From a virus, in the IMG/VR virus record IMGVR_UViG_3300009285_001223, positions 1 through 25,767 of that record: 25,767 nucleotides of DNA, one strand, 5' to 3'. Shown here one piece after another: positions 411 to 25,767 of the stretch. The position numbers were made by a program, and so were the translations under genes. Under the pieces are notes generated by a model. The model ran no database searches, had not been told where the DNA came from, and saw only the letters and a list, made by a program, of their open reading frames with translations. Each line of letters begins with the position of its first letter. The first letter of the stretch is position 1.

Positions 411-767
411 ATGGCAACCTCAGCCGTCAGCGAAGAGGTCGCCATGAGGGACTACCGCAACCTGGACGTAGTCGAGCGCTTGGGAATGTGGCGCACGTCT
501 GACCAGTACCCGCCGTTTGTGGTCACCGAGCGGCAGACGCTCGAGGATGCGGCTGCGCTCATCACCGTGTTGCGCACCATGCTTGCCGAGATGTTGGTGG
601 CAAGGCCGCCACTGGAGGCAGACAACCAGCTCGTTCTCCAACTGGTCCCAATGAACACGTTGCTCGAGGAGTGCCAAAGCTGCCACGTCCCCACCGGCGA
701 GCCCTGCCGCACCTGCTGCCCGGTTGGCGGCACCTACCCCCTCGACGCCGAAGGAGAAGAGCCATGA
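411..767 (+). CDS. Small protein with C-terminal Cys-rich zinc-binding-like motif
   Basis: This 118-residue protein is not recognised as a known family. The ATG at 411 is preferred over GTG 405 because AAGGAG at 400-405 lies five bases before it. The N-terminal two thirds look helical with alternating Leu and Ala (about residues 44-88). The C-terminus carries C88-x2-C91-H92 and C99-x2-C102-C103, a spacing that could hold one zinc ion. It ends in an acidic tail. Its TGA overlaps the ATG of the next gene (ATGA at 764-767), so the two are probably translationally coupled. Function is unknown; a small regulatory or accessory phage protein is possible. Confidence 0.75.
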   Translation: MATSAVSEEVAMRDYRNLDVVERLGMWRTSDQYPPFVVTERQTLEDAAALITVLRTMLAEMLVARPPLEADNQLVLQLVPMNTLLEECQSCHVPTGEPCRTCCPVGGTYPLDAEGEEP

Positions 768-1195
768 ACAACGCCGCGCTCACCCTCCGGAACGCCGAGC
801 TGCGCCGAGAGGTCGGTTCCCTCAAGCGGGAAGTCAGCAGCCGTGACCGGCTCATCGCGGACCTGACGGCCGAGGGGGCCATGTTGCGTGACGAGCTTGC
901 TAGGGGGATCACCTTCCGGTACAACCGGCAGGCGATGATCCACAAGGGCATCCAGCGCGTGGCCCAGGTGGCCGAAGCCATGCGGCCGTGGCGGAGGCTG
1001 GCAACCGCCTGGATCTCCCACCGGAGGGCCTGGAGCGTCGTCTGCCCAAAGGAGCTGTCTGCCATCCTGGACCAGATCGTACTCGGTGACTCTGACCGCC
1101 CCGAGGACGAGGAGGACCACGAGCTGGCCCGTCTACAGCGACTCCTCAGGCTGTCCGGAATCGCCGCCGAGGGCGGAGAAGGAGAAGAGTCATGA
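764..1195 (+). CDS. Hypothetical protein with N-terminal coiled coil
   Basis: The protein has 143 residues. The start at 764 has AAGGAG eight bases upstream and overlaps the previous stop. Residues 5-48 (LTLRNAELRREVGSLKREV and onward) show a heptad-like pattern of Leu, Val and Ile with many charges, typical of a coiled coil. A basic and aromatic middle with several Arg and Trp follows (residues about 53-92), and the tail from about residue 108 is acidic. No catalytic motif is visible. It may form an oligomer with the neighbouring small proteins. The stop overlaps the ATG of the membrane protein gene at 1192. Function unknown. Confidence 0.75.
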   Translation: MNNAALTLRNAELRREVGSLKREVSSRDRLIADLTAEGAMLRDELARGITFRYNRQAMIHKGIQRVAQVAEAMRPWRRLATAWISHRRAWSVVCPKELSAILDQIVLGDSDRPEDEEDHELARLQRLLRLSGIAAEGGEGEES

Positions 1196-1386
1196 CCGTG
1201 TTGATCAGTGGAGTGCTATGCGTCCTCGCCGGAACCATTCTCGTGGTGATCGGCAAGCTCAAAGGACTCGAGCTGAGGGTGACCAGGATTGAGACGATCT
1301 TCCAGACCCCGCCGGCGAGCCGGCCAACCGCCACCGGAAAGGTGGCACTGATCGAGGAGGCCATGGCCACTCGGAGCGCGCCATGA
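1192..1386 (+). CDS. Small one-pass membrane protein carrying a portal-like peptide
   Basis: This 64-residue protein has a GGAGAAGGAGAAG ribosome site and overlaps both neighbours by four bases. Residues 3-20 are a hydrophobic membrane segment, followed by a short basic and amphipathic helix (about residues 22-36). Residues 44-56 read RPTATGKVALIEE. The portal protein encoded at 10005-12182 has RPTATGQVALIEE at residues 475-487, and both proteins have IETI shortly before the motif. At DNA level the 39-base blocks differ at seven positions, six of them silent. A TM segment followed by a helix resembles small phage holin-like or membrane anchor proteins, but the portal-like segment is not expected in those. 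Function is unknown; the shared peptide is directly seen. Confidence 0.75.
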   Translation: MTVLISGVLCVLAGTILVVIGKLKGLELRVTRIETIFQTPPASRPTATGKVALIEEAMATRSAP

Positions 1387-1886
1387 CCGCCGAGATCATC
1401 GAAGGCTCCTTCGACAACGCCCGGCGCTACCGCGGGCGCCCCTACAGGTGTCCAGCTTGCGGGTATGTGGTGCTCCAGGTCGACGCCGGAAACGGCCGGC
1501 TCATCGCCGTCCAGCCCTGCATGCTCAACGTCTTCCTGCCCGTCCGGAATCTCCTCGGACCCGACGGCGTCCCCGTCATGATCGAGGACGTCGCGGGCTT
1601 CGTGAAGAACAACCAGCTCGTCTCGACCCCCAACGCCATGATTCCCCACAACGCTGTCTGCCACGAGCTGGCCGTTCTCCTCGGCGAGCCCTGCGCCCCA
1701 CTGGAGATCCTCCTCGCCGGCGCGCCCCCTCCCTGTGCCGCCTGCAGCCATCCCTGGACCGACCACGCCAAGCTCGGCGAGCCGGTCGTCAAGGGCTGCA
1801 ACGTCGAGGGCTGCGGCTGTGGGCAGTGGGTCGAGGTGGTGGGGCCTCAGGCCGTCCCTGACCCGGAGGTGCCCCATGCCGGATGA
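1383..1886 (+). CDS. Protein with two zinc-binding cysteine clusters
   Basis: The protein has 167 residues and starts at ATG 1383 overlapping the previous stop, with CGGAG upstream. An N-terminal knuckle has C23-x2-C26-G. The C-terminus has C118-x2-C121-x-H123-x4-H128, then C139-x4-C144-x-C146 followed by an aromatic residue. That second pattern is a recurrent small metal-binding motif in actinobacterial and actinophage proteins, to my knowledge, which is a weak host clue. The middle (residues 40-110) is a hydrophobic domain with no motif I recognise. It may bind nucleic acid or another protein through zinc. Its end overlaps the next gene by 11 bp. Function unknown. Confidence 0.75.
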   Translation: MTAEIIEGSFDNARRYRGRPYRCPACGYVVLQVDAGNGRLIAVQPCMLNVFLPVRNLLGPDGVPVMIEDVAGFVKNNQLVSTPNAMIPHNAVCHELAVLLGEPCAPLEILLAGAPPPCAACSHPWTDHAKLGEPVVKGCNVEGCGCGQWVEVVGPQAVPDPEVPHAG

Positions 1887-2130: not shown

Positions 2131-2294
2131 CGAACACCGAAAGCGGGGGAGGCCGGACCCTTCCCCAGCTGAGCGACTACCTCACCCCGGGCCTCATCAC
2201 ACCCGGGCCGTGCCCACCCCAACAGCGACCAACGGCGTCCGGGCCGTGTCGCTCCTACCTGGTTAGTCGGTCAGCTCGAGGTCCATCGGCGTGA
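2127..2294 (+). CDS. Possible small ORF at the convergent junction
   Basis: A 55-codon frame starts with ATG 2127, overlapping the previous stop in ATGA, and ends at TGA 2292-2294, about 30 bp inside the opposing gene. The first 30 codons have the GC-rich third positions of the neighbours, while the rest do not. No ribosome site is visible, the predicted protein is Pro- and Arg-rich, and the frame runs through the hairpin at 2224-2253. It could be a coupled small gene or simply an open frame in an intergenic spacer. Confidence 0.25.
   Translation: MTNTESGGGRTLPQLSDYLTPGLITPGPCPPQQRPTASGPCRSYLVSRSARGPSA
2224..2253. terminator. Hairpin between convergent operons, putative bidirectional terminator
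   Basis: AGCGAC (2224-2229) pairs with GTCGCT (2248-2253), and ACGGC (2232-2236) pairs with GCCGT (2243-2247). This gives an 11-bp stem with a two-base bulge and a six-base loop. It sits just downstream of both converging gene sets. No U-tract follows on either strand, so it could be a weak or Rho-assisted terminator. Confidence 0.45.
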
Positions 2295-2751
2295 AGACGT
2301 CGTCATCCCCCGGCCCGGCGAGCACCGGCGTGCCTGCCCCAGCAGCGGGATGCCTCAGGGTGATCGACCACCCCGCCCACTCCCCGGTCCCGGTCCACTC
2401 GTCCCCGAGGACGAAGCGACCGTAGCGGGCCTCCAGGCCGGCGCGAAGGTTCGCGGCCATGCTCCCCGGCAGGGCGTCCAGCATCGCGCGGTGGCGGTCG
2501 CTGAGGGCAACGTTGACCATGCGCTGCTCCCCCGCCGGCGGCAGCTCCCCGGCCGGTGTGGTGGCCATCGCCAGGTCGTCGTCAAGGCGCCGGGTGAGGT
2601 AGCGCAGCTCGGCCAGCAGCGCGGCCATGCGGCCCGCCAGCTCCTCGCGGTGCACCGTCCCTGCCCCAGCTACGGCCAGGACCCGGGCGAGCCGCTGCAC
2701 CGGGCGCAGCAGCTCCTGGGCCAGGTCGGTCGGGATGCGCAGATGGGGCAT
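2263..2751 (-). CDS. Hypothetical protein, last gene of leftward operon
   Basis: The protein has 162 residues. The start codon lies at 2749-2751, four bases after the stop of the small gene at 2756-2884, and the stop is TAA at 2263-2265. The N-terminal half is Leu/Ala/Arg-rich and helical (LAQELLRPVQRLARVLAVAG and on to residue about 62). Residues about 78-125 (VNVALSDRHRAMLDALPG followed by LEARYGRFVLGDEW) look like a small mixed domain, and the tail is acidic and Gly-rich. No known motif is seen. The ribosome site is weak (GGTAACACC precedes ATG), so coupling to the upstream gene is likely. Function unknown. Confidence 0.7.
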   Translation of the reverse strand: MPHLRIPTDLAQELLRPVQRLARVLAVAGAGTVHREELAGRMAALLAELRYLTRRLDDDLAMATTPAGELPPAGEQRMVNVALSDRHRAMLDALPGSMAANLRAGLEARYGRFVLGDEWTGTGEWAGWSITLRHPAAGAGTPVLAGPGDDDVFTPMDLELTD

Positions 2752-2755
2752 GGTG

Positions 2756-2884
2756 TTACCGGGTAATACCGGGGGCGACCGTCTCGTAGTGGTCGCCGCA
2801 CCACACCATCGGCCGTCCGTGGATGTAGTCGCCAGCGTCCGGGAACCCGTTGCCGCGCTCGCTGATGGTTGCTATCGTGCTCAT
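2756..2884 (-). CDS. Very small protein, 42 residues
   Basis: This gene is too short for usual ORF lists but is well marked. On the minus strand GGAGAGGAGAGAG precedes ATG (2882-2884) by a few bases, and the frame ends with TAA at 2756-2758, four bases before the next gene. It encodes a protein starting MSTIATISERGNGFPD and containing DYIHGRPMVWCGDHYET. Conserved-looking aromatic, His and Cys residues suggest a folded or metal-binding peptide, but no family is recognised. The spacing on its 3' side supports membership of the leftward operon. Confidence 0.55.
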   Translation of the reverse strand: MSTIATISERGNGFPDAGDYIHGRPMVWCGDHYETVAPGITR

Positions 2885-3050
2885 GGTCTCTCTCCTCTCC
2901 AGTCGCTCCGCCCGGGTCCGCCGGGCGCGGGGTCAGCGGCTACAGACCCATGGAGCGCGCAATGCTCTTCGCCATTCCTGACCAGGACCCAGCGTGGTAC
3001 CTCCGGCAGCCTCGCCGCGGGGTCCGGCTTGCCGCAGGGGCCGGGAGAGT

Positions 3051-3308
3051 TTATCTGACCACCACCGGCCGCCACCGGCCCTTGGGATGGCATGATGGCC
3101 GGTCCCACGCCCATCCGGCGACGGGGCGACCGTCCCGGCGGAGGTCGTAGACCCATGACATCCCGGCCTGTTGGCCGTACCTGGGGTAGCAGCCGATATG
3201 GTTTGCCTCGCGCCGGGTGGTGTGGTAGCTGGTGATTACCTCGCCTCCGTGAAGAACAAACACGACACAGTAGCGGGCGTCGGTCGGGGTGGTCATGATG
3301 TCTTGCAT
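3051..3308 (-). CDS. Hypothetical protein, 85 residues
   Basis: ATG at 3306-3308 is preceded by AAGGAG with a seven-base spacing, and the start lies four bases after the preceding gene's stop. An internal ATG 12 bases later is an alternative start. The sequence CVVFVLHGGEVITSYHTTRREAN followed by a Tyr/Trp-rich, basic C-terminal half suggests a small alpha/beta fold. No motif is recognised. The 166 bp downstream (2885-3050) contain no frame with a usable start codon, so they are left without a gene. Confidence 0.65.
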   Translation of the reverse strand: MQDIMTTPTDARYCVVFVLHGGEVITSYHTTRREANHIGCYPRYGQQAGMSWVYDLRRDGRPVAGWAWDRPSCHPKGRWRPVVVR

Positions 3309-3312
3309 GGGG

Positions 3313-3612
3313 TCACTCCTTCTCGGCGGTCAGGTCGAACGGGTGGTAGTCGATGGCGTCGTCGGTGGCGAGCTCCTCGGCCGCGTCGGCTTCGAGGTCG
3401 AGGGTCAGCTGGTACGGGACCCAAGCGTTCGGGGCCTGGCGGTGGAGCCATCGGAGATAGTCGAGGGTCTCGGCCGCGCCCGCTTCGGCGATGGGCTCGG
3501 CGGTGGTCGGGGTGTACCCAGGGGCGAGGATGCGAGTCTCGATGGGCTGGATGGCTTGGACGAGGGCGGTGAGACGGATGTCCAGCCTGTGTCCAGAAAG
3601 GTCGGGGGTCAT
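3313..3612 (-). CDS. Hypothetical acidic protein, 99 residues
   Basis: The frame stays open much further upstream, but the real start is most likely the ATG at 3610-3612. It overlaps the stop of the preceding small gene in ATGA, and the upstream part of the open frame crosses a promoter and repeats. The protein begins MTPDLSGHRLDIRLTALV, contains a helical stretch (AGAAETLDYLRWLHRQAP) and ends with a strongly acidic tail. No family is recognised. It is the second gene of the leftward operon. Confidence 0.65.
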   Translation of the reverse strand: MTPDLSGHRLDIRLTALVQAIQPIETRILAPGYTPTTAEPIAEAGAAETLDYLRWLHRQAPNAWVPYQLTLDLEADAAEELATDDAIDYHPFDLTAEKE

Positions 3613-3770
3613 GACGCACCGCCGATCCGCGCGCCGTAGCCGGCGAGGGACAGCCGGACGGCGTGCCGGTAGGCGGCCGCCAGCGTCCGGTGGGTCACAA
3701 CGCCGCGGTCCGCGCGGCTCGGGTGGCTGTACGCCACGGTCGTTGGGCGGGTGGGGGTTGAGGGGGTCAT
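3609..3770 (-). CDS. Small basic protein, 53 residues, first gene of leftward operon
   Basis: This gene is below common length cut-offs but has the best ribosome site in the operon: AGGAGG five bases before the ATG at 3768-3770. It ends at TGA 3609-3611, overlapping the next ATG. The protein starts MTPSTPTRPTTVAYSHPSRA and ends LSLAGYGARIGGAS. It has many Arg, His and Thr residues and a helical middle (THRTLAAAYRHAVRLSLAG). As the first gene behind the promoter at 3788-3816 it may be an early regulatory or host-takeover protein; this is inference. Confidence 0.6.
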   Translation of the reverse strand: MTPSTPTRPTTVAYSHPSRADRGVVTHRTLAAAYRHAVRLSLAGYGARIGGAS

Positions 3771-3787
3771 CGGTTCCTCCTGGGACC

Positions 3788-3816
3788 AAGATGGCGCACC
3801 TTTCTGGGCTTGTCAA
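3788..3816 (-). promoter_or_regulatory. Leftward sigma-70-like promoter
   Basis: On the minus strand a perfect TTGACA lies at 3811-3816, then 17 bases, then CATCTT at 3788-3793. The -35 box is consensus while the -10 matches only partly. It lies just upstream of AGGAGG and the ATG at 3770, so it would drive the five-gene leftward operon with a very short leader. Confidence 0.5.
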
Positions 3817-3880
3817 GGGGTTGTGACGTCCGAGTTTCAGTACATCGACCCTATCATCATAGGAGGCAGCTCTGGCACGG

Positions 3881-3990
3881 TGGACATCTGTGGACATGGT
3901 CTGACATCTTAGGACACCGAGTGACACCAGAGGACAGGGTGTGTCATCTCTGGACACAGGCTGGACATCCGTGGACCAGGTCTGACATCT
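3881..3990. repeat. Helically phased array of TGGACAT/CTGACAT motifs
   Basis: A GACA-containing heptamer recurs about every 10 bp at 3881, 3891, 3901, 3911, 3921, 3931, 3951, 3961 and 3982, with an inverted copy (GTGTCAT) at 3941 and a decayed GTGGACC at 3971. Bases 3881-3909 and 3962-3990 form a longer direct repeat with three mismatches. The array ends directly upstream of the -35 box of the rightward promoter. One site per helical turn would place bound proteins on one face of the DNA. Confidence 0.8.
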
Positions 3991-3994
3991 GTGC

Positions 3995-4023
3995 TTGACT
4001 CGGCTGCTCCTCGACCCTACGAT
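3995..4023 (+). promoter_or_regulatory. Rightward sigma-70-like promoter
   Basis: TTGACT at 3995-4000, a 17-base spacer and TACGAT at 4018-4023 form a near-consensus promoter. It follows directly on the phased GACA array, so the array probably regulates it. Transcription would run through about 740 bases of untranslated sequence before the gene at 4771. Confidence 0.6.
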
Positions 4024-4125
4024 CAAGGCCAGGACCATGCACGCTCCTCACCGCCTCCGCCGGCCAGGGCAGCTCTCCAGGCCCACGGCTACATCCACCC
4101 TCACAGCCTCCGCCTCCTCCGCCTC

Positions 4126-4161
4126 GGGGAGGGAGGGGGGACTACAGGGGGGAGGGCAGGG
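4126..4161 (+). other. G-run cluster, potential G-quadruplex
   Basis: Six runs of three or more G occur within 36 bases (4126-4129, 4131-4133, 4135-4140, 4147-4152, 4154-4156, 4159-4161) with loops of one to six bases. This satisfies the usual four-tract quadruplex pattern. It is preceded by a pyrimidine-rich CCTCCGCCTC-type tract (4107-4125). It lies in the leader of the rightward promoter. Confidence 0.6.
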
Positions 4162-4413
4162 TGCAGCTCATGCCCCGTCTCCGTCTCCGTCTCCGCCCCC
4201 GGCGAGCTCCTCCTCCTCAAGGTCGACCTGGGTGCAAACCAGCCGGAGGGGCTCAAGGGGCTCGAGGGGTGGGACGGATCGGCCGAGGAGACTAGGCATT
4301 GTCCCACCTAGGATGGTCTGTAACGTGGTGCGTGACAGACTAGACCGGAAGGCCCGCCCCTGTTGGGTCTCCCCCCCATCGCCTCACTTTTGTCATAGGG
4401 CTCACGATCGAGG

Positions 4414-4436
4414 TTCCGGAAAGACATATTATGTCT
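4414..4436. promoter_or_regulatory. Paired palindromes, possible operator
   Basis: TTCCGGAA (4414-4421) abuts AGACATA-T-TATGTCT (4422-4436), a perfect 7-1-7 inverted repeat, unusually AT-rich for this genome. The size and symmetry suit a dimeric helix-turn-helix repressor site. TATTAT inside it resembles a -10 box, but no -35 box is found at the right distance. Confidence 0.45.
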
Positions 4437-4770
4437 ACCTGGGCTCATCGACTGTTGATTCCAGAGCACTTAGTAGTCGAGACGCGCGCGAAATCTCAGG
4501 TTTGGAGACGGGCCGGTGAGAATCTCAGCGTTTTCCACAGCAGCAGGGGCTCGAGGGCCAGGTCGGCTGGGGGTTTCGGCCTGGTCTCGGTTGGAGCGAG
4601 CACCCTCGCCGATGACCCACCGTCGCCCCCAATCGTGCCTGAGCCCAGACGGTAATCCCCCTCCGCCTGCCTACGCAGTTTTGGAAAACCCCACCAGGGC
4701 TGTCGCGGAAGGGGTTCAAGCCGTCGTCGATTCAAGGGGGCATTCTGTGCGTTCTAAGCGGAGGTCTCCG

Positions 4771-5331
4771 ATGAAGGTCGGTCATGGCTGGGTGAGGCGA
4801 GCTGAGTCCCTGGTGTTCGTCTGCGGGGATGGCTACTACGGCTTCGAGGGTATTCCGAGCTGGCGGCCCTACGAGGTGAGTGAGGAGCTGATCGACGACC
4901 TGGGTCGTGACCGGGTGAACGAGCTGCTTGGAAATCCGATTTGGGGCGGCGATAGCTTCTGCTGCATGACTGAGGTGGTCTACCCGCGGAGCATCGGGGG
5001 CATCCTGGCTCTGGCGGCGGACTGGGTTCACTACGGCTGGCTGGCCGGGCAGTACTACCTGGTCATCTGGGGCCGCCAGCGGGGTCTGTGGCACTTTGAC
5101 CCGGCAAAAAGGCGGGAGCTGGAGCCTTGGAAGTGGGTCCACCTGCGTCTGGGGCGGGAGCCTGGACGAGCTGAGCGGGTAGCGGCGTCCGCTGCGGCCT
5201 GGGCGGCACTCCAGGCTCGGCGCGCGGCTGAGCCCGAGCCGCTGCCTCCGAGCGTTGACGAGCTGGTGGCTGGCTTCGAGCGCGATGCTCGCGTCCGTCT
5301 TGGGCTGCCCGCCGAGAGGAGGCTCCAGTGA
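4771..5331 (+). CDS. Hypothetical protein at start of packaging operon
   Basis: The frame is open from further upstream, but the ATG at 4771 has GGAGG six bases before it and marks where codon use becomes typical. The protein has 186 residues. Residues 1-125 look like a compact alpha/beta domain rich in Trp, Tyr and Gly (WVRRAESLVFVCGDGYYGFE, then AADWVHYGWLAGQYYLVIWG). The remainder is an Ala/Arg/Glu-rich helical tail. No family is recognised. Its TGA overlaps the GTG of the probable small terminase, so the two may act in the same process. It is the first gene after the control region. Confidence 0.75.
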   Translation: MKVGHGWVRRAESLVFVCGDGYYGFEGIPSWRPYEVSEELIDDLGRDRVNELLGNPIWGGDSFCCMTEVVYPRSIGGILALAADWVHYGWLAGQYYLVIWGRQRGLWHFDPAKRRELEPWKWVHLRLGREPGRAERVAASAAAWAALQARRAAEPEPLPPSVDELVAGFERDARVRLGLPAERRLQ

Positions 5332-6050
5332 GTCTCTCCCCGGTGATCGGCACGGAGCTGCTCGAGGAGCTGGAGCTGCTGGGGGTCGACACGGCGGTGG
5401 TTCTCCCCGAGTCGATGGAGCCGGCGCAGGTCGAGGAGTTCGAGAAGATGCGGGACGCTTTGGCCCTGCGGGGGACGGGGCGGACCGAGGCGGAGATCGA
5501 GAGTCTGATGGGGTGGCCGGCGGGGCAGGTCAAGACGTGGCGGAAGAAGCAGGCTCCCCTCTGGGGCTGGGCACTGGCGGACTCAATTGAGCGGGCGAAC
5601 CGGCTGACCGGCTACGTGGCGTGCCAGGCGATCAGCCTGATGAACCAGGCGGAGGTAGCTGGGATCAAGATGCTGTACCGGGTGATGACCGAGACGGCGG
5701 TCGAGGTGGCGAGGATGACCGCCGAGGGGAACGCCACGGCGGCGAACCGGCGGCTGGAGACGGGGGCGAACGCTGCTCGGGGGCTGCTGACCTACGCGGG
5801 GCGGCTCCGGGAGCACGCGATTGCGGATTCGAAGGTGGACGCCGAGGGGAAGCTGAGGCCGGCGTTGAGTGCGGAGTTTTTGGAGCGGCTGAAGCGGAGC
5901 ACGCCGGAGTCGACGAAGGCGAGGATCAGCGAGAAGCGGGCGGAGGTGGCTGCGAGAGTGGCGAAGCACCGGAAGGTGGCGCCGAAGCGTGGGGTGAGCG
6001 CGGGGCTGCACCAGACGCTGGCTGCCATGGGGGTCAGTGATGGGGACTGA
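5328..6050 (+). CDS. Probable terminase small subunit
   Basis: The protein has 240 residues. The GTG start at 5328 overlaps the previous stop and has AGGAGG five bases upstream. Residues about 48-73 (RGTGRTEAEIESLMGWPAG followed by QVKTWRKK) fit a DNA-binding helix-turn-helix like those opening many small terminases, which recognise the packaging site on phage DNA and hand it to the large subunit. A long helical region follows (ANRLTGYVACQAISLMNQAEV through the Arg/Ala-rich residues near 150), suitable for ring oligomerisation, then a basic C-terminal tail (residues 185-225) suited to contacts with DNA or the large subunit. Assignment rests on fold features and position; the large terminase is 2.3 kb downstream, further than usual. 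A generic DNA-binding protein is the alternative. Confidence 0.55.
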   Translation: MSLSPVIGTELLEELELLGVDTAVVLPESMEPAQVEEFEKMRDALALRGTGRTEAEIESLMGWPAGQVKTWRKKQAPLWGWALADSIERANRLTGYVACQAISLMNQAEVAGIKMLYRVMTETAVEVARMTAEGNATAANRRLETGANAARGLLTYAGRLREHAIADSKVDAEGKLRPALSAEFLERLKRSTPESTKARISEKRAEVAARVAKHRKVAPKRGVSAGLHQTLAAMGVSDGD

Positions 6051-8326: not shown

Positions 8327-10008
8327 TGCCCCTAGTCCGAGCGTCCCGGCGCACGAAGCGCGGCAAGGAGGCCCCGCAGGGCGGCCTCTACTGCAAGCGC
8401 TGCGCCGACCTCGGGGTGGACCACTACGCCTTTAAGGCGCAGTGCGAGGGCAGCCTCTACGACTTCGTCAAATACTTCGTCTCGGACTGGGTCATCCCGG
8501 AGATCCACGGGGCCGTCATCGACTGGTTCACCGAGGAGCGCGCCGCGGGGGCCAACGACTTCCTCGTGATGTTCGCCCGGCGGCACCTGAAGAGCACGGT
8601 GTTCTCCATCGGCTATCCCCTGTGGAGGGTTGTCCAGACGCGCGGGGACATCCGGCTCAACCTCGTCATGCTCTCCGGCGGTCTTGCTGCGGCGAAGCTC
8701 AAGAAGATCAAAAACGTCGCCCAGGGCCAGAACTTCAAGCACTTCTGGGGTGACCTGGTTCCCGAACCGACCGCGCAGGGGGCAATCTGGACGAAGGAAG
8801 AGGTCCAGTTCAACAGCCTAGCGACCTACGAGGAGCCGACGATCACGGCCTCTGGGGCAAAGAAGAAGCAGGTCGGCGGGCACTACGACGAAATCATCCT
8901 CGACGACCTTGTGGACGGGTCGGTGTCCTCCTCGACGCTCCAGATCAACGCCGCCCTGTCGTTTCTCTCCGGCGTCGAGGGCATGTGGGTGAATCCGGAC
9001 AAGGCCCTCCTCCTCATCGTCGGGACCGCCTGGCCCGGCGGGTTCTACGAGCCGCTGCTCAAGGACGAGTCATTCAAGAAGTGCATCTTCGGGTGCAGGG
9101 TGGACGACCGCTATCTGGGCTTCATGCAGAGCCGAGGGCTCGACACGTCCAGCTTCAAGCTCAGAGAGCCACTTTACCGGGCGCACGGCAACTACCCGGC
9201 CCGCGAGACCGAGAAGACCCTGGCGCGGGCGAAGAAGCGCTTCAAGTCGATGTATGCAAACCAGATGGACAACGTATTCCTCGACGACAAGCTGCGGCAA
9301 TTCAGGGCCGAGGACATCCAGTACTTCAAGTGGGGCGACGACGAGAAGAAGTCCGTCATGGTCGACGGCGTCTACTACCCGGTCAGGGCGTTGTTCGTTC
9401 AGACCACTGTGGACCCCGGCGGGTCCGGGAAGTACTCCGAGGACGCATCGGCGGTGGTCACCACCGGCTGGGCTCGCGGGATCGGGGTCGGCTTCGTGTT
9501 GGACTCCTGGCACGCCAGGACGACCACCAAGCCGGTCATCGAGGAGACTCTCCGGCAGGCCGAGGCATGGGGATCGCGGTGCATCAGGGCCGAGCATGCC
9601 GCCATGCAGTCGATCCTCACCGACTGGCTCCAGGACGAGATGAGGCGCCGGAAGAAGAGCTTCAAGCTCGACCCGGTTGCTGCCGGGCACCGCAGCAAGG
9701 TGGAGCGCCTGCTCGGGCTCCAGCCGTTCATCGCCAGCCACCAGGTCTACTTCCGTCAGGACCAGCCGGATCTCCCGAACGAGCTGGCGGAGATCGTCAT
9801 CGTCGGCAACGAGATCAAGGGTGCGTCGCCGAACCTCGCCGACGCCCTCGCCTACAGCACCGGGTACTGGCGCAGCTCGCCACCGGCGTTCCTTAGCTCC
9901 GACGAGATCCCCTTCGTCGAGGAGCAGGACGAGATCATGGCTGACCACGAGGTCCGATACAGGCTCCAGTGCCCCACCAGGGCGTCGTTCGTGAGGGCTT
10001 CCCTATGA
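8326..10008 (+). CDS. terL: Terminase large subunit
   Basis: This 560-residue protein is the packaging motor ATPase and headful or end-cutting nuclease. The N-terminal ATPase has a Walker A-like FARRHLKST (residues 83-91), a form common in phage terminases, Walker B DEIILDD (188-194) and a coupling motif GTAWPGG (233-239). The C-terminal RNase H-like nuclease has D363 in VDPGG and a final acidic residue in LADALAY (D506); E423 or a nearby residue may be the middle metal ligand. Residues 23-40 hold C23-x2-C26-x6-H33-x6-C40, a possible zinc knuckle that most large terminases lack. The start overlaps the preceding stop (TGATG) and AGGAAGG lies upstream. The stop overlaps the portal start. Length is normal for the family. 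Confidence 0.93.
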   Translation: MPLVRASRRTKRGKEAPQGGLYCKRCADLGVDHYAFKAQCEGSLYDFVKYFVSDWVIPEIHGAVIDWFTEERAAGANDFLVMFARRHLKSTVFSIGYPLWRVVQTRGDIRLNLVMLSGGLAAAKLKKIKNVAQGQNFKHFWGDLVPEPTAQGAIWTKEEVQFNSLATYEEPTITASGAKKKQVGGHYDEIILDDLVDGSVSSSTLQINAALSFLSGVEGMWVNPDKALLLIVGTAWPGGFYEPLLKDESFKKCIFGCRVDDRYLGFMQSRGLDTSSFKLREPLYRAHGNYPARETEKTLARAKKRFKSMYANQMDNVFLDDKLRQFRAEDIQYFKWGDDEKKSVMVDGVYYPVRALFVQTTVDPGGSGKYSEDASAVVTTGWARGIGVGFVLDSWHARTTTKPVIEETLRQAEAWGSRCIRAEHAAMQSILTDWLQDEMRRRKKSFKLDPVAAGHRSKVERLLGLQPFIASHQVYFRQDQPDLPNELAEIVIVGNEIKGASPNLADALAYSTGYWRSSPPAFLSSDEIPFVEEQDEIMADHEVRYRLQCPTRASFVRASL

Positions 10009-12182
10009 TCCACGCGCAGGACCCCGTCGAAGGCGTCGTCGAGCTTGACCTCTCCCCCGAGGAGGAGAAGAAGCTCGTCGACGGCCTCATGAAGTCGTTC
10101 GACCAGGCCCTCCAGGACCGCGAGGACTCCGGGCTGGACAAGCAGGCGCAGAACGCCGTGCTCCAGTACCACTCCGCCCTCGACATCGAGCAGAAGGACC
10201 CCCAGGGGTCGCACTTGGACATGGCCAGCACCCGAAAGCTCACCGAGCAGGCGATCAGCCGCTTCATGAACCCGATCTTCCAACGCGACCAGATCGTCAT
10301 GGGCAAGCCGAGGTTCCCTCAGTGGGTGGACTTCGCCAAGGAAGCCGAGGGAATGGCCGACTGGATGCTGGACCGGACGAAGCTGCGGCTGTTCCTCGAG
10401 CCGTTCCTCAAGCAGGCGTTCGTCTTTCCGAAGGCCGTGGCGAAGATCCCCTTCAAACGGAAGCTCCGGAAGGTCAAGCGGTACATCCACGAGGTCGAGA
10501 AGGCCCCGGGGTCGATCACGAAGTCCGACAAGGGCCTCGAGACCCGGCAGGGCGACGACGGGAAGGTCTACGAGCGGCACTGGGGCCTCCGGGACAAGAA
10601 CGACCCGAAGATCACCGCCGTCGAGATGGAAGAGGTCGAGGCGGGAAGCTGGCCGGAGACGGTCCCCTGGCAGGACTTCATCCACCCCGTCCCGTGCTCG
10701 GACGTCTACACCTCCTCGTGGGTCACTCACCGCACCTTTCCTGGGCCTGACGACATCACCAGGGCCATCCAGGCCGGCGTCTACCGCGAGAACGCGACCA
10801 AGGCCGACGGGGAGTCCGTGCCCATCCTAAAGGCCATGGGCGACCCCACGGCGAAGCCTGACGAGTCGATGGGCATCTCCACCGCCGGCGTCCGCGGCGA
10901 CGGCGAGGAGGCCAGTGACGCCGGCGAGGATTCTGGGTTCTTCGAGATCCTCGAGTTCTACACCACCCACGCTGGCGACGAGGTGATCATCACCATCGAC
11001 CGCCAGTCAAAGACGGTCCTCCGGGCGGTCGAGAACTTCTACATGGAGGACCAGCGGCCATTCGTGACCTGGAGCTACGAGGCCACGCTGAACAACGTGG
11101 ATGGGATCAGCCTGTGCTTCATCCTCGAGCCCTATCACCGGGCGATCTCCTGCCTGTTCAACCAGGCCCTCGACAGCGGCTCGCTGGCCCTGGAGAAGAT
11201 GACCTTCATCGACGCGAATCTTGAGGCCGGACGCTACTTCCCGGACAACAAGGGCAAAGGCGGGGTCTTCACTGTCAACGTGGCCGGGAAGGTCTCTGAC
11301 AGCATCGCCCAGTTCGACCTCGGGACGCAGATCGGCTCGGTGCAGTACCTGATCTCCTCTCTCCAGTCGGAGATGCGTGAGCTGGCGTCGCTGACGCCCT
11401 ACCACTCCGGTATCGAGACCATCCAGCGGCCGACGGCCACCGGGCAGGTCGCCCTCATCGAGGAGGGGAAGCAGCCCCAGTACAACCGGATGGACAGCCT
11501 CCGGACCTGTCTCTCGGCCCTGGTCATGATGATGTTCGGCCGCTATCGGCAGTTCAACCCGGTTGACTTCGAGTACTACGTGCAGTCGAAGGACCCGAAG
11601 AGCCGCGAGCTGTCCTACGCGGTCATCAAGTGGCCGGCTGAGTCCTGGCGCCGGTGTGTGAACATCGAGCTGGCCATCTCCTCCGAGCAGATGAACCGCG
11701 ACATGCGGAAGCAGGCGATGACCGCCCTGGTGGACAAGATGCCCCAGGTCTTCGAGCAGGTCATGGGCCTCGCCAACATGGCCATGTCGCCGGCGCCAAC
11801 CGCGGTGATCGCGCGGCAGCTTCTCGACTTCCAGCTGAAGAACATCATCCAACCGTGGCTCGAGGAGTTCGAGGTCCTCGGGCGGGAGGCACTCGACCTT
11901 GGAGAAGCAATCGACACCGGCGCAGCCTGGCAGCAGCAGCTCATGCAAATGCAGCAGCAGATGGAGATGCTGGGTTCTGAGGTGCAGTCAAAGGATGCTC
12001 AACTGGGTGAGATGGCACGATCACTTCACCACGTCTTCTCCCAGTTCGTCGCCGCCACTGGAAAGATGCCTCAACCCACCCCCTTCGGTCGATCATCGTC
12101 GTCTGGACCGCCTCAAGCGGCAGCCGGGATGGGCGGAGGTTCTGAAGTACCTGGAGGCGCAGATGCAGCCCTTGCTGGTTGA
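10005..12182 (+). CDS. Portal protein
   Basis: The protein has 725 residues. The ATG at 10005 overlaps the terminase stop and GAGGG lies seven bases upstream; an ATG 36 bases earlier is less likely. Portals form the dodecameric ring through which DNA is packaged and to which the tail attaches. Evidence is position right after the large terminase, length, and family-like stretches such as LDRTKLRLFLEPFLKQAFVF, PWQDFIHPVPCSDVY, and TIQRPTATGQVALIEE (about residue 472-487), followed by a long helical region and a Gln/Met-rich coiled coil (WQQQLMQMQQQMEML) near residue 645. The last 30 residues are Ser/Gly/Ala-rich with atypical AT-ending codons, because another frame there looks coding. The size is like portals of P22-type short-tailed phages. 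Confidence 0.9.
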   Translation: MIHAQDPVEGVVELDLSPEEEKKLVDGLMKSFDQALQDREDSGLDKQAQNAVLQYHSALDIEQKDPQGSHLDMASTRKLTEQAISRFMNPIFQRDQIVMGKPRFPQWVDFAKEAEGMADWMLDRTKLRLFLEPFLKQAFVFPKAVAKIPFKRKLRKVKRYIHEVEKAPGSITKSDKGLETRQGDDGKVYERHWGLRDKNDPKITAVEMEEVEAGSWPETVPWQDFIHPVPCSDVYTSSWVTHRTFPGPDDITRAIQAGVYRENATKADGESVPILKAMGDPTAKPDESMGISTAGVRGDGEEASDAGEDSGFFEILEFYTTHAGDEVIITIDRQSKTVLRAVENFYMEDQRPFVTWSYEATLNNVDGISLCFILEPYHRAISCLFNQALDSGSLALEKMTFIDANLEAGRYFPDNKGKGGVFTVNVAGKVSDSIAQFDLGTQIGSVQYLISSLQSEMRELASLTPYHSGIETIQRPTATGQVALIEEGKQPQYNRMDSLRTCLSALVMMMFGRYRQFNPVDFEYYVQSKDPKSRELSYAVIKWPAESWRRCVNIELAISSEQMNRDMRKQAMTALVDKMPQVFEQVMGLANMAMSPAPTAVIARQLLDFQLKNIIQPWLEEFEVLGREALDLGEAIDTGAAWQQQLMQMQQQMEMLGSEVQSKDAQLGEMARSLHHVFSQFVAATGKMPQPTPFGRSSSSGPPQAAAGMGGGSEVPGGADAALAG

Positions 12183-24618: not shown

Positions 24619-25497
24619 ATGGCCTTCTTCGGTCTCGACGGGAAATTCGGGTCCTGGATGGACAACCCCAAGTTCATGAGCCCGGACTTCCTCGGCGTCC
24701 GGGGCAGCAATACCGGCGCGGTCAGGCCCGGAGGAGGCCCCGGTCAGAGCAGGCTGGTGAAGCCGGAGGCGCCGGGCGGACAAGTACGGAATCCTACTCG
24801 TCCATACCCGGCGTTGCCCTCAGGCGACGATGAACTCTTCCCGTGGGAGGTCGTCCCTCGTTGGCCTGGGCAGATGATGGGGGGTGGTACCGGTACCGGG
24901 CCAACGCCCAACGACATGAGCGACGTCGAGGACTGGGACGAGTTCTACAAGCGCCGCAAGATGGCGATGATCCTCCGGGGTGACCGCCCGACGCTCGACC
25001 TCGCCGGGCTCCTCGGCAAGGCCGGCTGGAAGGGCGGGGGCGTCCCGGAGAAGTGGGACGGCGGGGCGTCGATCGCCAAGGCGAAAGTGGACCCCATGAG
25101 CGTTATCAACGCCGCCAAGCCGGGGATCATGGAAGAGATGAACCGCGGCTTTGCCTCGGCAGCGATGCGCCAGGGCGCCACCGGGGCGATGATGGGGTCT
25201 GGCTACTCACAGGCCCTCGGCGGGGTGGCGCGGAAGGCCGCAAACGACATCGGGCAGGTCACCATGGACACGCTGTTCAAGAGCAGCGAGTCGGCCGCCG
25301 ATCGGGAGCAGCAGGCCCTGGAGTCGGCGCGGGACCGGTCGCTCAGCGCCTGGGGGACCCACGGCAACTGGGAGGCCGACGCCGGGAAGGAGTACTTCTC
25401 AAACCTGATGGGGCTCCTGGGGATGTTCGGTGGGAACCTCGACGAGTACAACGTGGACTTTAGCGGTCTCGGTGACGCGCTGGGTGGGGGTGCGTGA
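24619..25497 (+). CDS. Candidate internal/ejection protein, 292 residues
   Basis: ATG 24619 follows the previous stop by three bases with a G-rich site upstream. The first 90 residues are disordered and Gly/Pro-rich. Residues about 155-235 form a helical region rich in Ala, Gly and Met (INAAKPGIMEEMNRGFASAA, ATGAMMGSGYSQALGGVARK), which could insert in membranes, and a charged helix follows (SAADREQQALESARDRSLSA). This composition resembles ejection proteins of short-tailed phages, which form a channel in the cell envelope. The C-terminus is Gly/Asp-rich. The stop overlaps the ATG of the acidic gene. Confidence 0.6.
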   Translation: MAFFGLDGKFGSWMDNPKFMSPDFLGVRGSNTGAVRPGGGPGQSRLVKPEAPGGQVRNPTRPYPALPSGDDELFPWEVVPRWPGQMMGGGTGTGPTPNDMSDVEDWDEFYKRRKMAMILRGDRPTLDLAGLLGKAGWKGGGVPEKWDGGASIAKAKVDPMSVINAAKPGIMEEMNRGFASAAMRQGATGAMMGSGYSQALGGVARKAANDIGQVTMDTLFKSSESAADREQQALESARDRSLSAWGTHGNWEADAGKEYFSNLMGLLGMFGGNLDEYNVDFSGLGDALGGGA

Positions 25498-25767
25498 TGA
25501 GCAGGCCATTGACCCCGGAAGAGCTTGAACTCCTCGAACTAGAAGATTTGGATGAGCTTGAAGAACTGCCGCTTGAAGAACTGGAAGAAGAGGATGATTT
25601 TGAACTACTGGACGAGGAGCCGCTGCTGGACGATCTAGAACTCGAAGACGAAGATTTTGACGAACTAGAAGACTTTGAGGAACTAGAAGATCTAGACGAA
25701 GAGCTCGATCTGCTGCTTGAAGACGAAGAAGTCACAGATGAAGAAGACACAGACGAAGAACTTGAAG
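25497..25767 (+). CDS. Asp/Glu/Leu-rich low-complexity protein, 3' truncated by the window
   Basis: ATG 25497 overlaps the TGA of the previous gene (ATGA is at 25497-25500), and the frame stays open to the window end, giving at least 90 residues. After MSRPLTPEELELLELEDLD almost every residue is Asp, Glu or Leu, with rare Phe, Pro, Thr and Val. Base content is clearly lower in GC than its neighbours, and codons GAA, CTA and CTT replace the GC-ending ones used elsewhere. Short DNA blocks such as GAACTAGAAGA recur. The opposite strand reads as poly-Ser and is rejected. An acidic disordered protein, DNA mimic or internal virion component is possible; no family is known to me. Confidence 0.65.
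   Translation, partial: MSRPLTPEELELLELEDLDELEELPLEELEEEDDFELLDEEPLLDDLELEDEDFDELEDFEELEDLDEELDLLLEDEEVTDEEDTDEELE

Follow-up and report, generated by a model that had tools for sequence, protein, structure and literature searches.

A short gene in a 25,767-base virus record, analysed here at its full length as the window, encodes a predicted single-pass membrane protein that shares a peptide with the portal of the same phage. Residues 44-56 of this 64-residue protein, RPTATGKVALIEE (1321-1359, plus strand), are identical to the portal segment RPTATGQVALIEE (11427-11465, plus strand) at 12 of 13 positions, a match that had been claimed in the original prediction and is borne out on the translations. 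For one genome, a match this close is far beyond what chance would give, and it is worth keeping as a candidate relationship rather than as an established one.

A short-tailed phage remote from known relatives

The record has a G+C content of 66% and comes without an attached host genome. Its gene order and family matches are those of a short-tailed phage, with a terminase large subunit (phrog_38, 1.9e-37) followed by an SU10-type portal and then by likely scaffold, capsid and tail genes. A 240-residue ORF at 5328-6050, which has a weak helix-turn-helix match (HTH_68, E 0.015), occupies a position like that of a terminase small subunit. Judged from protein comparisons, the phage is remote from everything known: the terminase is 24% identical to Zobellviridae, the portal is 20% identical to that of a Manatee Spring podovirus, and the capsid is 23-26% identical to proteins of two IMG/VR contigs. 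These two distant capsid relatives were the only ones recovered when close relatives were sought via the portal, terminase, capsid, tail and neighbour genes.

The small membrane protein gene

The ORF at 1192-1386 (plus strand; product MTVLISGVLCVLAGTILVVIGKLKGLELRVTRIETIFQTPPASRPTATGKVALIEEAMATRSAP) looks very probably like a real gene, because it is preceded by a purine-rich stretch, GGCGGAGAAGGAGAAG, that would make a strong ribosome site, is flanked on both sides by ATGA overlaps (upstream ORF stop at 1195, downstream ORF start at 1383), begins with a predicted transmembrane helix, and has a third-position G+C of 78%, similar to its neighbours. The upstream gene of the same run (764-1195, plus strand) is of unknown function and has no family match in PHROGs/Pfam-type searches, and the downstream gene (1383-1886, plus strand), also of unknown function, encodes a cysteine-rich protein with only a weak Desulfoferrod_N match (E 0.019).

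Hydropathy and an AlphaFold2 model together place the membrane helix at residues 2-21 (1195-1254, plus strand). Residues 3-21 have a mean hydropathy of 2.7, and the single-sequence model contains a confident helix at residues 2-37, then a loop, and then a low-confidence helix at residues 49-60 that covers the motif. The protein thus appears to span the membrane once, in agreement with its earlier description as a tiny membrane protein. Four positively charged residues (K22, K24, R29 and R32) follow the helix, and the C-terminal tail is therefore predicted, by the positive-inside rule, to be cytoplasmic.

The gene is not a portal-family member in its own right: its product is 64 residues long, resembles the portal over 13 residues only and has no portal family match. 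Homologues of the small gene were sought in IMG/VR, GTDB genomes, phages and plasmids, and none was found; the protein likewise has no match in PHROGs, Pfam, NCBIfam or phages. A T4-type prohead protease site was also considered, since IEE↓A and IEE↓G fit the pattern (I/L)xE↓(A/G/S) of such sites. It was set aside, as sites of this kind also occur in five other proteins of the window and no protease gene was recognised.

The portal and its matching segment

The portal gene (10005-12182, plus strand) is assigned to the SU10 type through PF23899 (5.2e-12; 45.4 bits against a cut-off of 30), phrog_332, phrog_1216 and profile matches to portals in the PDB. Its reading frame opens at GTG 9969, and the ATG at 10005 overlaps the terminase stop codon as ATGA. 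The portal numbering given originally, residues 475-487, holds for the start at ATG 10005; counted from the upstream GTG, the segment comprises residues 487-499. The tetrapeptide IETI had been said to lie just before the motif in both proteins. It does precede the motif in each, in the portal at 11412-11423 (plus strand) and in the small protein at residues 33-36 (1288-1299, plus strand), but it is one residue away in the former and seven in the latter, so that the two copies of IETI are not collinear.

In an alignment of distant portals, the matched segment is a signature of the family. Its T and A occupy two of the eight invariant columns in seven portal sequences, and as T477 and A478 they account for two of the three invariant columns among nine portals, T7 and phiKMV included. 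A profile search of solved portals aligned the same stretch, rTAtevqall. The shared stretch is the most conserved element of the portal.

The segment aligns with residues R368-V-T-A-E-E of T7 gp8. In that portal, R368 is a tunnel-loop residue that makes up the channel's positive ring, and the 39-residue helix alpha10 that follows the R368 region serves as the channel valve (PMC6702177). The portal of the window resembles T7 gp8 in having the R-x-T-A core between alpha9 and a 39-residue helix, and differs in that a second copy resides outside the portal, on a 64-residue membrane protein. Because of this alignment, the small protein would end in the equivalent of the tunnel-loop arginine and the first turns of the valve helix. 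A structure model of the portal, although too poor to be used for docking (pLDDT 31), shows a 39-residue helix that starts at residue 478.

Probability of a chance match

The 27 proteins of the window were compared all against all as 13-mers (2.3e7 pairs), and the 12/13 pair was the only inter-protein match above 9/13. Under a chance model calibrated on 5e10 pairs from unrelated phage ORFs, 1.3e-6 pairs at 12/13 or better are expected per window; observed and expected numbers in the calibration were 48 and 36 at 10/13, 1 and 0.7 at 11/13, and 0 and 0.009 at 12/13. Nine control records yielded two other within-genome pairs at 12/13, both with plain causes: that of phiKMV comes from a terminator whose palindrome is read on either strand, and that of SIO1 from repetition of a motif in a single tail-gene region. 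Comparable copies of a portal segment were absent from the examined stretches of eight other phages. A shared 4-mer such as IETI within the 12 upstream residues has a p of about 0.004, for a feature chosen after the fact.

At the DNA level the pair is less extreme. A DNA-only model gives 8e-4 expected per window, and with the observed DNA background, which is 5-18-fold above that model, the expectation rises to about 1e-3 to 1e-2. All of these expectations are per window, and the windows among which the pair was noticed may be very numerous, so coincidence is still a real possibility.

The peptide itself is not a common motif: IMG/VR has no instance of the pattern TATGxVALIE(E/D), and 257 Gb of bacterial and archaeal genomes contain a single one, which answers in the negative the earlier concern that it might turn up in many unrelated proteins. 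The single occurrence is in an unrelated glycosyltransferase of Oceanicola sp. (ATATGRVALIEE, around 2581-2612 of its stretch, minus strand), where the likeness to the portal peptide is due to chance.

Codon-level history of the match

The two DNA blocks (1321-1359 and 11427-11465) agree at 32 of 39 bases, and the seven differences consist of six silent changes, as originally noted, and the one that exchanges K for Q. From this it had been concluded that conservation acts on the peptide and not on the DNA, a conclusion that goes further than the silent sites allow: the codons for shared residues are identical in 6 of 12 cases, against 5.9 expected from the codon usage of the phage, which is what two independent encodings give. 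Fourfold sites are likewise identical in 3 of 10 cases (3.8 expected). The silent sites give no indication of copying, and their pattern fits peptide selection and coincidence equally. A recent DNA duplication is ruled out by this saturation. The histories that remain are an old duplication in which selection has strongly maintained the peptide, transfer from the portal of a diverged relative, or coincidence; a common origin of the two segments seems, on the whole, somewhat more probable than separate ones.

Possible origins and functions of the shared segment

We tentatively propose, as a possible reading, that the product of the small gene combines a membrane anchor at its N-terminus with a short stretch derived from a portal, either the phage's own or that of a diverged relative, and that it acts on new portal subunits. 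Held by the anchor at the cytoplasmic side of the membrane, the stretch would most likely meet freshly synthesised portal subunits while the ring is being built or earlier; its effect could be to promote nucleation there, or to restrain or compete with assembly of the ring. The tail's cytoplasmic location, its meeting with portal subunits and the direction of any effect are inferred, as is the common origin. In favour of this proposal are the outlier status of the match under the calibrated model, the IETI upstream of both copies, the rarity of the peptide, the conservation of the portal stretch, the charged residues after the membrane helix, the membrane-bound portal initiator of T4 and the position of the gene within a tightly overlapping run. 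Counted against it are the lack of a small-gene homologue in the databases searched, which leaves conservation of the motif unsupported; silent sites that differ as much as those of independent sequences; and the eight other phages, whose examined stretches hold no similar copy. In addition, the segment lines the channel in the finished ring, so that probably only unassembled subunits could be contacted. That the phage has turned its own portal valve segment into a membrane-anchored peptide controlling portal assembly, whether its own or that of a co-infecting relative, and so has built a regulator out of the most conserved part of that protein, is rather doubtful.

In T4, portal assembly is initiated at the membrane with the aid of the chaperone gp40 (PMC9958956). 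The likeness concerns the proposed action only, that is, assistance to portal assembly at the membrane, and no sequence relation is claimed. To our knowledge, gp40 does not copy a portal segment. Nothing fitting a portal-derived or portal-targeting small membrane protein was found in the literature, judged by titles.

The same data can be read as coincidence, in which case the product would be an ordinary small phage protein that crosses the membrane once and has no known role, and the likeness of its C-terminal helix to a portal segment would be accidental. The codon identity expected of independent encoding, the displaced IETI, the modest DNA-level expectation, the choice of the pair from perhaps very many windows and the appearance of the same 11-residue pattern in the glycosyltransferase all speak for this account; the calibrated peptide-level expectation, in which IETI is not yet counted, speaks against it, and we regard it as about as probable as the reading proposed above. 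Phage genomes are mosaic, and illegitimate recombination might instead have fused a piece of a diverged relative's portal to a membrane-anchor ORF, leaving a piece without portal-related function. Silent differences older than the transfer would then account for the saturation at silent sites, with no need for selection within the small gene. Such a scar is nevertheless unlikely, as no relative with a portal of this kind was found and the frame and 12 of 13 residues have been kept, although similarity stops abruptly on both sides.

Small phage membrane proteins do act in superinfection exclusion, and the original prediction had suggested that the protein might dock or decoy an incoming virion. 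The portal valve gates DNA, and a peptide presented to an arriving virion, at its portal or its tail, could block DNA entry. This suggestion is not supported, because the segment lies inside the portal channel and the tail is predicted to be cytoplasmic, facing away from a virion whose portal remains outside the cell. The protein is like Sie-type exclusion proteins in being small with one membrane helix, but its topology and target do not fit, and no sequence relation to a known exclusion protein was found in PHROGs, Pfam, NCBIfam or phages; a role in exclusion is very unlikely. Host defences that sense the portal protein, as AVAST type 4 is described to do, might conceivably be titrated by a portal-like peptide at the membrane. 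Such sensors, however, probably recognise the fold of the portal and not a run of 13 residues, and nothing in the window points to a defence role, which makes a decoy of this sort highly improbable.

If the relationship is real, the shared segment would be a naturally occurring peptide directed at the part of the phage portal that varies least, and could help in studying how portal rings begin to assemble at the membrane, a step that is poorly understood. Should it be coincidental, it shows by measurement how convincing a peptide match due to chance can appear.

Other features of the window

A region of about 3.2 kb (2131-5327) that lacks a convincing plus-strand gene separates the first gene run from the likely small-terminase gene. 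Minus-strand ORFs at 2263-2751, 3051-3308 and 3313-4038 within it could be genes, and three direct repeats with a spacing of about 40 are located at 3876-3990. Both ends of the window display repetitive reading frames. At the right end, a low-complexity, highly acidic frame (LEELEDLDELEEL...; 25494-25766) is open and contains short degenerate DNA repeats. At the left end, six near-identical 57-bp tandem repeats (1-457) encode GGYTHPLPAGLTxTxxLYL in a reading frame that is open at the end of the window, and they show a 171-nt register in which most copies are 87-96% identical.
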